This document shows, piece by piece, positions 2,414 through 14,125 of a stretch of DNA of 14,125 nucleotides (positions are counted from its first letter, which is position 1; each line of letters begins with the position of its first letter). Source of the stretch: Planctomycetota bacterium (lineage in GTDB: Bacteria > Planctomycetota > Phycisphaerae > UBA1845); assembly GCA_022566435.1 (NCBI GenBank), contig JADFIX010000014.1, forward strand, positions 1 to 14,125, in the 5' to 3' direction. Both the position numbers and the translations under genes were made by a program. The notes beneath the pieces were generated by a model. It was not told the DNA's origin and made no database searches. It was given only the letters and a program-made list of their open reading frames with translations.

Positions 2414-3451
2414 ATGGCGCGCGAGACAAAGGTTGGATTGATCGCAGGGCTCGCTTTCATCATTTGCTTCGCCGTCATTCTGTCCAATCGTGGTCGTCTC
2501 GTTCCGTCACCACAAGATCCGCCAACTCGTTTTCAGTATGTCGCCGCGGAAACAATAACACCGCCGGCATCGAATCGTCGGCCGCCACAGCGTCGAACCG
2601 CATCAGCTACCCGCGGCGCGGCGACCAATCCGCCACGACCCGCCGGTACCGACCAAGGCCTGGCGAACACCGTTTCGAACCACAACCCGTCCGGGGCGTC
2701 GCCACCCGCGTCATCAGGTCTGTCGAACCCGCAACGAGGACCACAAAATGCGCAGGTGGCCGACGCCCGGTCGTCGGATGAAGCCGAACGCTTCCGTCAA
2801 CTGGAAGCCCGCATCGAGGCGTTGAGTCAGAAGCTTGCGCTCGAGGGTCGCCGTGAACTTCGCATGGCGGACAAGGAGCAGCAGACCGTGATCCAAGCGG
2901 ATACCGAACGAGCGCCGCCTCCGTCACCGCCGGCACGCCAATCGACGGCCAATCCGCCGCCTGCGGCCAATCGCGAAATGGGACGCCACACGGTGACGTC
3001 GGGAGATACACTTTCGAAAATCGCTTTCACTTACTACGGCAGCAAGTCTCGGCGACCGATCAACGCGCTTATCGACGCCAACCGCGGCGTGCTCTCGGAC
3101 CCCGATGTGCTAGGCATCGGGATGGAACTCGTTCTTCCGGTCGTCGCCGGATTCGAGAAACCGCACAAAGGGACCGCCGCACGCACCCCAGAGGCGGATC
3201 AAGACGCCGCCGAACCGCGTCGTCCGCGCACCAGAGCGGATGAAACGGGCCCCTTTCGTTGGTATCAGATCAAGAAGAACGACCGGTACGTCAGTATCGC
3301 CCGAGATGAACTCGGCGACGAATCGCGCTGGAAGGAGATATTCGAGCTGAACAAGAAGGCGTTTCCCGATCCTTCTCGAATTCGGTCCGGCGTGCGCATC
3401 AAGTTGCCCACGGTAGCCATGGCCGATTCCAGCCGTGGCACGAATCGATGA
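2414..3451 (+). CDS. Membrane-anchored protein with two LysM domains
   Basis: This 345-residue protein has an uncleaved-looking N-terminal membrane anchor (residues 8-24, no lipobox) with three charged residues before it. A long Pro/Ser/Arg-rich disordered linker (about 28-120) follows, then a short predicted coiled coil (121-152), a second Pro-rich stretch (167-186) and two LysM domains (191-243 and 282-332). The first LysM has the typical HTVTSGDTLSKIA start; the second, YQIKKNDRYVSIA, is more divergent. LysM domains bind N-acetylglucosamine in peptidoglycan, so the protein probably tethers the inner membrane to the wall. Its place between rsmH and the ftsL-like gene, with ATGA overlap to the latter, suggests a part in septal wall synthesis; that is inference. 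No enzymatic domain is visible. Confidence 0.85.
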   Translation: MARETKVGLIAGLAFIICFAVILSNRGRLVPSPQDPPTRFQYVAAETITPPASNRRPPQRRTASATRGAATNPPRPAGTDQGLANTVSNHNPSGASPPASSGLSNPQRGPQNAQVADARSSDEAERFRQLEARIEALSQKLALEGRRELRMADKEQQTVIQADTERAPPPSPPARQSTANPPPAANREMGRHTVTSGDTLSKIAFTYYGSKSRRPINALIDANRGVLSDPDVLGIGMELVLPVVAGFEKPHKGTAARTPEADQDAAEPRRPRTRADETGPFRWYQIKKNDRYVSIARDELGDESRWKEIFELNKKAFPDPSRIRSGVRIKLPTVAMADSSRGTNR

Positions 3452-3738
3452 ATACCCTTCGCATCTGCGTTCTGCTGGTCATGTTTGCGATCGTGGCATT
3501 AGGGGTAGTGTTCTGTCGGGTCGGGCACACCCGCAGTGCGTGCGCCGCGCTGACCATTGAATCGCAGAGGGTCGAGGCCCGGCAGCGTCTGTGGCTCGTG
3601 CAGACGGCGGTTGCCCGGCTGCGTGCGCCGCAGCGGTTGCATTCCCGCATGTCGTGGATTGACACCGAACTTGTTTCGCCCGCGGAGGTCGAGTCTTCGG
3701 GTGAAATCGCCCTCACTTATCCACGACCGAGAGACTGA
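3448..3738 (+). CDS. Small single-pass membrane protein, FtsL-like
   Basis: The 96-residue product has one N-terminal membrane segment (about residues 5-24) followed by a helical stretch rich in Glu, Arg, Leu and Val (about 33-65) that could form a coiled coil. That is the plan of FtsL, the bitopic divisome protein that pairs with FtsB and activates FtsW-FtsI. FtsL diverges too fast for sequence recognition; the assignment rests on size, topology and position directly before ftsI. The ATG at 3448 overlaps the TGA of the LysM gene (ATGA), so the two are translationally coupled. The C-terminal tail after residue 70 is not leucine-zipper-like. It could instead be an unrelated small membrane protein. 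Confidence 0.6.
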   Translation: MNTLRICVLLVMFAIVALGVVFCRVGHTRSACAALTIESQRVEARQRLWLVQTAVARLRAPQRLHSRMSWIDTELVSPAEVESSGEIALTYPRPRD

Positions 3739-5634: not shown

Positions 5635-7176
5635 ATGAAATATTCGGACGGATCCGCCATCGACTTGCGTACCCATACATTGCAGACCCTCTGGTGTCGC
5701 GCCGGGCTTACCCTCGCCTATCCGTGCGGCGTTCCCTCGGGTGACGTGATTACGTCACTCACGGACGATTCGCGTCGTGTCGAACCGGGTTCCCTGTTCG
5801 TTGCCGTACGCGGCACGCATTGCGACGGACATAGATATGTGGAGCAAGCAGTCGAAGCCGGCGCCGCGGCGGTCGTCGTCGACCAGGAAGCGAAAACTAC
5901 GGGGAACGCGACCTATTTGCGCGTTCCAGACTCGCGCGCCGCATTGGGTCGATTGGCAGCGGCGTTCTACGGGCTACACGATCCGCCGGCCGACAAGCTA
6001 AGACTCATCGGTGTCACCGGTACCAATGGCAAAACGACCGTGGCCTGGATGCTTCGTTCGATTCTTCAAGCCGCGGGGAAAAAGGCGGCGCTCTTGGGGA
6101 CCATTGAGTACGATCTCGTGGGAGATCGGATCGCCGCGCCATTGACCACACCAGGTCCAGTCGATCTTTGTCGTCACCTGTCGGCGGCCGCCACCGCGGG
6201 TGCCCGATACGCGGTCCTCGAGGTGTCTTCGCACGCTTTGGATCAACGCCGTACGGAGGGACTACGGTGGTCGGTCGGTGTGTTCACGAATCTCACGGGC
6301 GATCATCTGGACTATCACGGCTCGATGGATACCTATGCTGCGGCCAAGCGCCGCTTGTTCGAGCAGCTCGATTCACGGGCGACCGCTGTGGTGAACGGCG
6401 ATGATCCCGCGAGCGAGTCGATGACCGCTAAGACGAGGGCATCGGTTTCACGATTCGGCTTGAACGGCGACGATTGCGAAACGGGTGCCACGATCGAATC
6501 CATGACCGCATCCGGCAGTCAATTCGTCATACATTGGCAAGATTACGAAGTTCGCGTGCGAATCGGGCTGATCGGTCGTCACAACATTTCGAATGCACTG
6601 GCGGCTGCGGCGGCGGCACGCGTTTTGGGTCTTTCGCGGGCGTCGGTTCAGCTGGGGTTGGCCGGTCTTACCGGTGTGCCTGGGCGTTTGGAACGTGTCG
6701 CGCCGGAGGAGAGTCCCATCTCAGTACTGGTGGACTACGCTCATACGGATGACGCGCTTCGCCATGTGCTACAGGCGATTCGGCCGCTGACCGTAGGACG
6801 AATCCGTTGTGTATTCGGTTGCGGGGGTGATCGCGATAGAGTCAAGCGTCCGCGTATGGCTGCCGTCGTGCACGAGATGGCGGATGTGGCCTACGTCACG
6901 AGCGATAATCCGCGGACCGAAGAGCCGCGGAAGATTGTGGACGACATCTTATGTGGATTCCCCCCGGATGCCGCGAAGGGGGTGCGTGTGGACGTCGATC
7001 GCCGCTGTGCGATCGCCCGCGCGATCGCGGAGGCCGAACCAGGCGACACGGTCTTGATCGCGGGCAAGGGGCACGAAGACTACCAAATTCTCGGCGACGA
7101 AGTCTTGCCATTCGACGACGCGACGGTGGCCCGCGAATGCCTGGAAACCACCGTGACCGCGGGAGGTGTGGTATGA
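5635..7176 (+). CDS. murE: UDP-MurNAc-L-Ala-D-Glu:meso-diaminopimelate ligase MurE
   Basis: MurE adds the third stem-peptide residue to UDP-MurNAc-dipeptide in the cytoplasm using ATP. The 513-residue length is typical. The N-terminal domain has DDSRRVEPGSLFVAVRG (44-60) and DGHRYV (64-69). The ATP loop is GVTGTNGKTT (126-135). TTPG and EVSSHALDQ (196-204) follow, then NLTGDHLDYHG (219-229). YAAAKRRLF (234-242) contains the likely carbamylated Lys238. The C-terminal domain has VDYAHT, GCGGDRD and DNPRTEE (424-430); DNPR is the motif of meso-DAP-adding enzymes. GKGHEDYQ is at 477-484. The start codon directly abuts AAGG (5631-5634), too close for normal ribosome binding, which fits leaderless translation from the promoter just upstream. 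Its TGA overlaps the murF ATG. Confidence 0.96.
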   Translation: MKYSDGSAIDLRTHTLQTLWCRAGLTLAYPCGVPSGDVITSLTDDSRRVEPGSLFVAVRGTHCDGHRYVEQAVEAGAAAVVVDQEAKTTGNATYLRVPDSRAALGRLAAAFYGLHDPPADKLRLIGVTGTNGKTTVAWMLRSILQAAGKKAALLGTIEYDLVGDRIAAPLTTPGPVDLCRHLSAAATAGARYAVLEVSSHALDQRRTEGLRWSVGVFTNLTGDHLDYHGSMDTYAAAKRRLFEQLDSRATAVVNGDDPASESMTAKTRASVSRFGLNGDDCETGATIESMTASGSQFVIHWQDYEVRVRIGLIGRHNISNALAAAAAARVLGLSRASVQLGLAGLTGVPGRLERVAPEESPISVLVDYAHTDDALRHVLQAIRPLTVGRIRCVFGCGGDRDRVKRPRMAAVVHEMADVAYVTSDNPRTEEPRKIVDDILCGFPPDAAKGVRVDVDRRCAIARAIAEAEPGDTVLIAGKGHEDYQILGDEVLPFDDATVARECLETTVTAGGVV

Positions 7177-8592
7177 TTCCTCTTACACTCGGCAACATTG
7201 CCTCTGCGATCGGCGCGGAAATCTCCGCTACGACCCACTCGTTGACCATCGATCGCGTGATCACCGATTCCCGCGAGATTCATACGGGCGATTTGTATGT
7301 GGCGATTCGGGGGAAAGCTGGCGCGTCCGTCCCTGGCGGAGACGAATGCAATCAGCGCAGTACCCGACGGGCGAGAGTGGTACGACTTCGAGGGTGCATC
7401 GTCTTTGGAAACCGATGGTCGCGACGATTCGATCGTCCCCCTGGTTGTCGACAATACAATCACGGCACTCGGCCGATTGGCGGCCTATTATCGTCGCGAG
7501 GTTGTTTCACCGACGACCGAGGTCATCGCGATCACCGGCAGCAACGGCAAAACGACGACCAAGCTCATGCTGCATCACTTGCTGTCGGCTTCGTTTCCCG
7601 GGCGCTGTGCACCCAGGAGCTTCAACAATGAGATCGGCGTGCCGTTAACGTTGCTTTCCGCCGAGCCGGATGATCGCTATTTGATTGTCGAGATCGGCAG
7701 CAGCGCCCCCGGTGAAGTCGCTCATTTGGGGCAAATGGCGGCCCCGACAATCGGTGTGATCACTTCGATCGGCGAAGCCCATTTGTCGGGTTTTGGCGAC
7801 CTCACCACGATCGCCGCTGAAAAAGCGTCATTGATGGACCATATTGCTTCGGGGGGACTGTGCGTGGTCAACATCGAATCGGACGAATTGACGAATCAGA
7901 TGGGTACGCCGCGCGGGTGCGAAGTTTGGACGGTCGGTCGGACGCCGGGCTCGAAGTTTGCGCTGGCGGAAGTTGAAGGTTCCCTTTCCGGCACGACTTT
8001 TTCGCTGTCCGGCTTCGGGCGGGTTCATGTGCCTCTTCCCGGTTCGCATCACGCCGTAAACGCGGCGGCGGCGATGGTCGTTGCCCAGCGGCTCGGGCTC
8101 TTGGGCGAAGATATGATCCGCCGATTTCATTCGTTCGTGCCACCGGCGGGACGTGCCCGGATCGTGCGAATCGGTGACATCACCCTGATGGATGACACCT
8201 ACAATGCGAATCCCGCAAGCGTTGAGGCGGCGATCGAGTCTCTCTTGCTCGCAGACACAGGTCGTCGGGTTTTTGTCCTGGGCGACATGTTGGAGCTTGG
8301 CGATGCGTCCGCTCGCCTCCACCGCCGCGTCGTGCGACGCATCGTAGATGCCAAGTTCGACTTGTTGATTACCGTGGGCCGTAAAACACGCCAGGCCGCG
8401 GGTGAGGTGAAGAATGAAGGTACCCTCATGATGATGGTCGCGTGCGAAGACAGCGAGTCCGCCGGGGAGGCACTCGATTCACTCCTGCAATCCGGCGATA
8501 CCGTTTGGATCAAAGCGTCGCGTGAATTGCAACTGGAAAGAATCGTGGAGCGCATACGAAGTTCGTACGGGGAGCGGGTTGCGATGGCCTAG
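7173..8592 (+). pseudogene. murF: UDP-MurNAc-tripeptide:D-Ala-D-Ala ligase MurF, frameshifted
   Basis: MurF completes the pentapeptide by adding D-Ala-D-Ala. The ATG at 7173 overlaps the murE stop (ATGA), and the first frame gives a normal MurF start up to TDSREIHTGDLYVAIRG, ending at 7313. The rest lies in another frame: VVDNT (from 7444), ATP loop GSNGKTTT (7537-7560), then SFNNEIGVPLTLL, EIGSSAPGE, SIGEAHLSGFG, the MurF hallmark DDTYNANPASVEAA, and LGDMLELGD, to the TAG at 8590-8592. Removing one base, for example from the five-G run at 7309-7313, gives one product of about 472 residues, a normal length. Codon character places the shift between 7313 and about 7350. The expected DGHxF segment after VAIRG is absent in every frame. 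MurF is essential, so a sequence error is likelier than true loss, but this cannot be decided here. Confidence 0.9.
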
Positions 8593-12277: not shown

Positions 12278-12410
12278 AGCGAGGCGTGACGATAAAGAGA
12301 TCAAGCGGCGCGGTGGAATCTTTGCGGGCGAGAACCGTCTACATACGCTCCGCGCGGTCGACTTCTTCAGACATAGCTCGTGGCGAGGGAGCGAGGTGCG
12401 CGTGGGCATA
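12274..12410 (+). CDS. Doubtful small ORF between murG and murC
   Basis: An ATG at 12274 overlaps the murG TGA (ATGA), the same coupling seen at murF and the ftsL-like gene, and opens a basic ORF of 45 codons ending at TAG 12408-12410, just inside murC. The product is rich in Arg, Ser and Ala, with no motif I recognise. It fills the otherwise empty 118 bp before murC, so it may be a coupling peptide that carries ribosomes to the murC start. Chance is at least as likely. Confidence 0.2.
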
Positions 12411-13820
12411 GACGAACACGATTCCAGTCGGGCAAACAATCGCTTCGACGCTTCAGGTTTGCGCATTCACATGATCGGTATCGGCGGCTGCGGTATGAGC
12501 GGCGCGGGACGCATTCTCGCGGAGCGCGGCGCGGTGGTGTCCGGCTCGGACCTCAACTCGTTTGAAGGCATGGGGTCTTTGGTGCAGCGCGGTGTGAGGG
12601 TGAGCATCGGGCATCGCGCCGAGCAGGTCGCTGAGGACGTGGATCTTGTGGTGATCAGTGCCGCCATCCCAATGTCGAATCCGGAATTGCAAATCGCACA
12701 CCGGCGCGGCGTACGAGTCATCAAATATGCGGAATTGCTCGGTGAGCTATCACGAGGGTACCGAGGGATCGCGATCGCCGGGACGCATGGCAAGAGTACG
12801 ACAACGGCGATGGTCGCCCACATTTTCCGGGAGTCGGGCCTGGATCCGACCTTTGTGATCGGTGCGCAATCCGAGCAACTGGGAGGGAGCAGCGCCGCGG
12901 GCACGGGTCCGCACTTCGTGGTCGAGTCCTGTGAGTATGGTCGATCGTTCTTGAACCTCAAGCCGCACGCCGCGGCGATATTGAACATCGAGTCGGATCA
13001 CCTCGATTGCTACAAGAATTTCGAGGCCATCGTCGAGGCTTTTTCCGACTTTGCCCGCCTGGTGGACGTCGCGGGAATCGTGATTTGTAATGGTGAAGAC
13101 CGATGGGCGATGGAAGCGTCCGCGGCATCCGGCGCCTGCGTCGAGACGTTCGGATTCGACGAGTCCGTGGACTGGCGAGCGATCAATCTGGCGCAGGACT
13201 TCGGTCGGTTTTCTTTCGACGTTCAATATCGTCGGGTGCCGGTCTTGTCGACGCGGCTGGAGGTTCCCGGGCAACACAATGTACGTAACGTCCTGGCTGC
13301 CGTCGCGCTGGCCTATCATTGCGGCGCCGCCTGCCATCGGATTTCCGAAGCCGTCACCTCGTTTGAGGGCATCGGACGAAGGCTCACGTTGCGGGGTAGA
13401 GGGAGCGGCGTGCAGATCGTGGATGACTATGCCCATCATCCCACGGAGATTCGTGTCACGATCGAAGCCGTTCGGAGTCGGTATGTGCCGAAGCGGATCA
13501 TCGTCGTTTTTCAGCCGCACCAATACGACCGAACACGCCATTTTCTCGACGACTTCGCGGCCTCGTTCCACGATGTCGACGAGGTCGTGGTGCCTGATGT
13601 ATACGGCGCTCGGGAGAGTGAACGTGACGGCGTACAAGTGGGTTCGAAGGAGTTGGTTTCGCGTATCTGCGAAAAAGGCGGTCGGGCTTGTTACCTGCCG
13701 ACGTTGAGTGCGGCGGCCGAGCATGTAGTGGCCCAGGCGACCGATGGCGATCTCGTGGTCACGATGGGGGCGGGTGACGTGTGGAAGGTGGCGGATGAAC
13801 TGGTGCAGCGAATTTGCTGA
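12396..13820 (+). CDS. murC: UDP-N-acetylmuramate:L-alanine ligase MurC
   Basis: MurC adds L-Ala to UDP-MurNAc, the first stem-peptide step. From the GTG at 12396 the product has 474 residues, normal for the family. Motifs: Rossmann IGIGGCGMSG (27-36), ATP loop AGTHGKSTTTAM (128-139), ESCEYGRSFLNLKP (177-190), NIESDHLDCYKNF (197-209), PGQHNVRN in the central domain and DDYAHHPTEI, QPHQYDRTRHF and DVYGARE in the C-terminal domain. Most MurC proteins have EADESDxSF where this one has ESCEYGRSF. GTG 12396 and GTG 12402 each have a purine-rich site 5 bases upstream (GAGGGA at 12385 and GAGG at 12393), so the exact start is open. The frame is open back to 12213, but that part overlaps murG and is not MurC-like. 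Confidence 0.95.
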   Translation: MRVGIDEHDSSRANNRFDASGLRIHMIGIGGCGMSGAGRILAERGAVVSGSDLNSFEGMGSLVQRGVRVSIGHRAEQVAEDVDLVVISAAIPMSNPELQIAHRRGVRVIKYAELLGELSRGYRGIAIAGTHGKSTTTAMVAHIFRESGLDPTFVIGAQSEQLGGSSAAGTGPHFVVESCEYGRSFLNLKPHAAAILNIESDHLDCYKNFEAIVEAFSDFARLVDVAGIVICNGEDRWAMEASAASGACVETFGFDESVDWRAINLAQDFGRFSFDVQYRRVPVLSTRLEVPGQHNVRNVLAAVALAYHCGAACHRISEAVTSFEGIGRRLTLRGRGSGVQIVDDYAHHPTEIRVTIEAVRSRYVPKRIIVVFQPHQYDRTRHFLDDFAASFHDVDEVVVPDVYGARESERDGVQVGSKELVSRICEKGGRACYLPTLSAAAEHVVAQATDGDLVVTMGAGDVWKVADELVQRIC

Positions 13821-14125
13821 TCGCATCGAACGGGATGCGCCGTTGGGGCGTCTGACGTGGTTCCGGCTGGGCGGACCCGTGAGCTACCTGTTCCATCCTA
13901 AAGATGGCGAGGAACTCGCTCGTATGGTGGTACGAGCGAAAGATACGCAAACACCGCTCAAAGTGCTCGGTGCCGGCGCCAATGTTTTGATCAGAGATGA
14001 CATGATAGATACCGCCGGTTCGATTGCGGCCGCAGCAGAGTGCGTGAAGCAAAACGGTGCTCTGGATATTTATGCGGCAGCTACGCATGGCGTACTGTCG
14101 GGACAGGCTTTAGAAAGAATTGAAA
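13795..14125 (+). CDS. murB: MurB N-terminus joined in frame to a PRPP synthetase fragment
   Basis: The ORF starts at ATG 13795, overlapping murC by 26 bases, with GGAAGG at 13783-13788, and runs off the window. Residues 1 to about 68 are the start of MurB, the FAD enzyme that reduces UDP-GlcNAc-enolpyruvate to UDP-MurNAc: APLGRLTWFRLGGPVSYLF (15-33) and VLGAGANVLIRD (57-68), the FAD-binding region. A MurB would then continue with a glycine-rich segment and AGAGxxL. Instead the frame continues as ribose-phosphate pyrophosphokinase (see the separate entry). Position after murC is a normal one for murB. The MurB part as it stands cannot make a working enzyme. Confidence 0.85.
   Translation, partial: MNWCSEFADRIERDAPLGRLTWFRLGGPVSYLFHPKDGEELARMVVRAKDTQTPLKVLGAGANVLIRDDMIDTAGSIAAAAECVKQNGALDIYAAATHGVLSGQALERIE
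13999..14125 (+). other. prs: Ribose-phosphate pyrophosphokinase (Prs) C-terminal fragment
   Basis: Residues 69-110 of the murB-started frame read DDMIDTAGSIAAAAE, then a short stretch, then YAAATHGVLSGQALERIE. In PRPP synthetases DDMIDTAGT is the PRPP-binding loop and ATHGVLSGxAxERI follows it at this spacing, so both motifs and their distance match. Nothing like this occurs in MurB. By hand count G or C ends about 18 of 41 codons here, against about 42 of 69 in the MurB part, so base use shifts as well. The upstream two thirds of Prs are missing. A join of two unrelated sequences near GATGAC (13996-14001) is the simplest explanation. Confidence 0.88.

Follow-up and report, generated by a model that had tools for sequence, protein, structure and literature searches.

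The last 124 to 145 bases of the contig analysed here are very probably foreign, and appear to be a piece of a ribose-phosphate pyrophosphokinase gene (prs) from a bacterium near "Candidatus Zixiibacteriota bacterium B55T3L14" that was joined artefactually to the murB of the host within positions 13981-14001. The window, that is, the whole stretch of DNA under analysis, is the entire contig (G000:C820) of a Planctomycetota genome bin and ends at position 14125. The two halves of the join differ in their affinities, the bounds of the join are sharp, and the three genomes nearest to the tail each carry a whole, unfused prs, which is the pattern expected of a chimera between genomes. The join almost certainly arose artificially, during assembly or through a chimeric library molecule, rather than in a living cell, and the MurB-Prs reading frame that results from it is almost certainly neither a biological feature nor a real new protein.

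The bin is a fragmented assembly of 939 contigs and is 63.6% complete. In the window, Pfam matches outline a dcw cluster that includes mraZ, rsmH (MraW family), a LysM protein, a penicillin-binding transpeptidase, a MurE-type Mur ligase, murF (recognized by NCBIfam too), an MraY-type transferase, an FtsW-type protein, and a MurG-type transferase. The 3' part of the cluster consists of murC (12402-13820, forward strand, start approximate), which matches TIGR01082 with 456 bits (cut-off 335) and is the last intact gene before the join, followed by the murB piece. The LysM-domain protein (345 amino acids, 2414-3451) lies between rsmH and the penicillin-binding transpeptidase; after it comes a frame of 96 amino acids (3448-3738) with no Pfam match, which may be FtsL-like, a guess made by position alone. 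A change of frame is present in murF (window positions 7173-7320), as its start (MIPLTLGN...VAIRGK) is read in the frame of 7173 and the remainder, an open reading frame at 7297-8592 that covers columns 48-416 of TIGR01143, in the next frame. Since the change sits near a GGGGGAAAG run, it probably reflects either an indel error or a real frameshift.

At the very end of the contig, an open frame without a stop (13795-14124, 110 amino acids) begins as the front of MurB and runs into the region of Prs that contains the PRPP loop, the change falling fewer than 150 bases from the contig end. The original prediction, which placed an in-frame change from murB to prs near position 13999, was borne out by separate profile matches. 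Indeed, the segment 13795-13998 alone matches the MurB profile NF010480 (E 4.9e-15, columns 13-73) with 55 bits, well short of the 259 set as cut-off for the full length, and the segment 13996-14124 alone matches the Prs profile TIGR01251 (E 4.2e-14, columns 217-259). Pfam likewise assigns the tail to Pribosyl_synth and, below threshold, the front to FAD_binding_4. Each enzyme is represented only in part. Of MurB, the N-terminal segment of the profile is there and the full length with the remaining domains is missing, the match stopping at column 79 of 303; of Prs, the PRPP-binding loop and the next segment are there, as indicated by the TIGR01251 match and by the sequence DDMIDTAGS, which we take to be the PRPP loop, and the N-terminal domain with the rest of the enzyme is missing, the contig holding only columns 209-259 of 309. 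The frame can thus be divided into a native murB 5' end (13795-13980, residues 1-62), a join zone with the sequence AATGTTTTGATCAGAGATGAC that encodes NVLIRDD (13981-14001), and a prs fragment of another bacterium that extends to the contig end (14002-14125), all on the forward strand. The GC content at third codon positions (GC3), said earlier to drop from about 61% to about 44%, was computed as 0.60 for 13795-13998 and 0.44 for 13996-14124, with 0.70 for murC.

The MurB half points to the host. A piece of 62 residues (13813-13998) finds matches in 57 of 60 genomes, namely the bin and 59 relatives, among which the closest kinship is that of the same family. In the 29 loci fetched out of the 56 relatives with a match, the C-terminus of MurC is located just upstream of murB on the same strand in every case, at a distance between matches of -5 to 108 bases. 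The best identity, 66% over 62 amino acids, is to the murB of a member of the same family. This murB (G031, for instance) resembles the window also in that it follows murC, but its frame of 313 codons includes no Prs piece. Judged by these sequence comparisons, the MurB half is native to the lineage of the bin.

The affinity of the Prs half is entirely different. When the last 51 residues were searched against a named genome collection, at least 570 confirmed loci were obtained, of which 80 were kept; the best among the matches listed was 100% identical over 48 residues and belongs to the metagenome-assembled genome B55T3L14, with the other 79 not exceeding 67%. At the DNA level, the prs of this genome (JADFLZ010000154.1) shares 137 of 145 bases with positions 13981-14125. 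Among 132 genomes grouped in the same phylum, 19 match the tail and three do so closely, with 138, 137, and 134 of 145 bases identical (92-95%), and all the mismatches are at third codon positions and synonymous. In all three genomes prs is a complete frame of 319 amino acids that is not fused, so that the Prs of B55T3L14, although it shares 48 of 48 residues with the tail, differs from the frame of the window. The GC3 of these prs genes is 0.43, and the value of the tail fits them and not murC, which counts in favor of a chimera. The comparison of the taxonomy of the two halves, proposed as a check in the original prediction, therefore assigns the MurB half to the family of the bin (up to 66%) and the Prs half to the phylum group of the Zixiibacteriota genome B55T3L14 (92-95% at the DNA level), and the reading of a contig-end chimera is supported both by the difference in lineage and by the finding of the lineage of the tail. 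The donor would be a bacterium near B55T3L14, the closest prs genes being similar and not an exact match.

The Prs proteins of the relatives are more distant from the tail. A Prs above the family cut-off is present in 58 of the 60 genomes, the exceptions being the bin itself and G027. In the 30 loci fetched from these 58 genomes, a set that leaves aside the additional Prs gene which some relatives possess, the closest protein has 27 of 43 residues in common with the tail, and the motif reads DD[MI][IV][TA]TAGT in all 30 as compared with DDMIDTAGS in the tail. When 114 genomes of the order were searched with the whole frame, the Prs sequences outside the bin among the matches listed (at least 39.3 bits) had no more than 61% identity. 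A second, lower-scoring Prs gene is found in eight relatives of the order (G040, G042, G046, G050, G051, G053, G056, and G059), with scores of 320-327 bits as compared with about 381-403 for the first. A phage or a plasmid was also considered as the source of the tail, and is unsupported at the sensitivity of the searches used: blastn of the tail DNA (13999-14125) against phage and plasmid records gave no match, and exact scans of viral contigs found neither a 36-base piece spanning the join nor a 32-base piece of the tail. In the literature on B55T3L14 or Zixibacteria, B55T3L14 was absent among the matches listed.

The position of the join can be bounded on both sides. Over the 30 bases before position 13981, each of the three close prs genes agrees at only 7-8, and every 21-base bin from there back to 13813 shows 3-8 of 21 matches. 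Since none of the three close genomes has the same base just before 13981 and the similarity further up is at chance level, the prs sequence should not start before 13981. One of the close prs genes carries exactly the word at 13981-14001, and the other two each depart from it at a single base. On the other side, the residue that follows the join zone is a glycine in 29 of 29 MurB relatives and a methionine in the window, so that host sequence should not extend past about 14001. The switch therefore lies within 13981-14001, and a shared word could be no longer than 21 bases. At the peptide level, the join zone reads NVLIRDD in Prs and mostly NVL[IV][SR]D, with D, E, or some other residue after it, in the MurB relatives, and the nearest murB word of a relative (L058) has 3 mismatches to the prs word over 21 bases. 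As a refinement of the idea that a short shared GATGAC could have joined the genes, the candidate stretch is longer. In a ranking by homology, the pair of murB and prs 21-mers at the join (best 18/21 bases, L058) has no superior in 8 of 29 relatives and is surpassed in 21, which supports a word-driven join only modestly. The codon AGA in the join accounts for 14 of 346 arginine codons in the genes of the window, as delimited here, versus 12 of 18 in a related prs (L145). As AGA is rare in the former and common in the latter, the shared word is maybe about 14 bases long (to 13994) and not 21, a length that may fit a chimeric molecule better than a graph join with k=21.

A real and very recent recombination should also be weighed, in which a Zixiibacteriota prs segment entered the murB of the host at a microhomology of at most 21 bases. 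Recombination could also make use of a similar word such as the one at the join, which is in frame, and the bin contains neither another murB nor a full prs. In particular, profile searches of the bin detected murB only once and, apart from the tail, prs at no more than 22.8 bits (a weak match on contig C336), and for the remainder of the host murB a profile search and the exact 14-mer at the join hit only the join itself. However, with a bin that is 63.6% complete these searches are weak tests, and the missing copies mean little. MurB is needed for peptidoglycan synthesis, and such an event would have cost the host most of murB even though other dcw genes are present; in addition, the join is found, among the matches listed, in no other genome of the order and the contig stops within 145 bases of it. 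A recombination of this kind is very unlikely, and the same low probability is given to its fuller version, in which a living strain carries the Zixiibacteriota segment in murB by microhomology-driven recombination, with intact murB and prs elsewhere in parts of the genome that were not assembled.

A genuine MurB-Prs fusion protein inherited in the lineage is more doubtful by far, despite the frame being open through the join. Such a fusion in related genomes, which would count against a chimera, was looked for with the whole 110-residue frame in the 114 genomes of the order. A match over residues 1-110 is seen in the bin alone (238.9 bits); among the other 113 genomes the highest score is 98.8 bits, over residues 1-73, and none of these 113 shows the fusion among the matches listed (at least 39.3 bits). 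Two matches run longer (G212, residues 1-96, 60.2 bits; G199, residues 12-107, 48.2 bits); they belong to open frames of 305-308 codons, the usual length of murB there, and their scores are within the range of MurB-only matches. In five relatives listed with one contig (G008, G023, G041, G042, and G046), murB and the best-scoring prs are 0.36-2.3 Mb apart along the contig, and a literature search on a fusion or chimera of MurB and ribose-phosphate pyrophosphokinase found no paper. Inheritance in the lineage is also at odds with the 92-95% DNA identity of the Prs side to another lineage, with only synonymous changes, and with a product made of a short N-terminal MurB piece and a Prs piece of 43 residues without most of both enzymes. 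Finally, that the whole frame is MurB and its likeness to Prs due to chance can be dismissed as wholly implausible, since no point in its support was found, the last 43 residues alone match TIGR01251 at E 4.2e-14, and the residues from 13981 on are identical to a Zixiibacteriota Prs at 48 of 48 positions.

The artefactual join is the simplest reading, with the prs piece attached to the host murB at a stretch that both genes share or nearly share. A passage of PMC7299287 describes metagenome assembly graphs as linked by shared k-mers, with chimeric contigs possible. Along this route, a short k-mer common to the two genes would have connected them and the weakly covered true branches would have been pruned. 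Alternatively, a chimeric library molecule would have given a read that formed the tip of the contig; the contig ends 124 bases past the last base that could be shared, and the 145 bases from 13981 to the end would be close to the length of a short read. The case is like other inter-genome chimeric contigs of metagenomes, in that sequences from two lineages meet at a similar short word where a contig ends, and in that the bin is fragmented; here only the in-frame coincidence stands out. The join is in frame because both genes code for a similar NVLxxDD peptide at that point.

The importance of the finding is that of a quality warning only. Annotations should not list the predicted protein at the contig end as a fusion, and positions 13981-14125 should be excluded from the sequence assigned to the host organism. 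All in all, a conserved peptide motif, encoded by similar words in unrelated genes, can give rise to a plausible in-frame pseudo-fusion in a metagenome bin.
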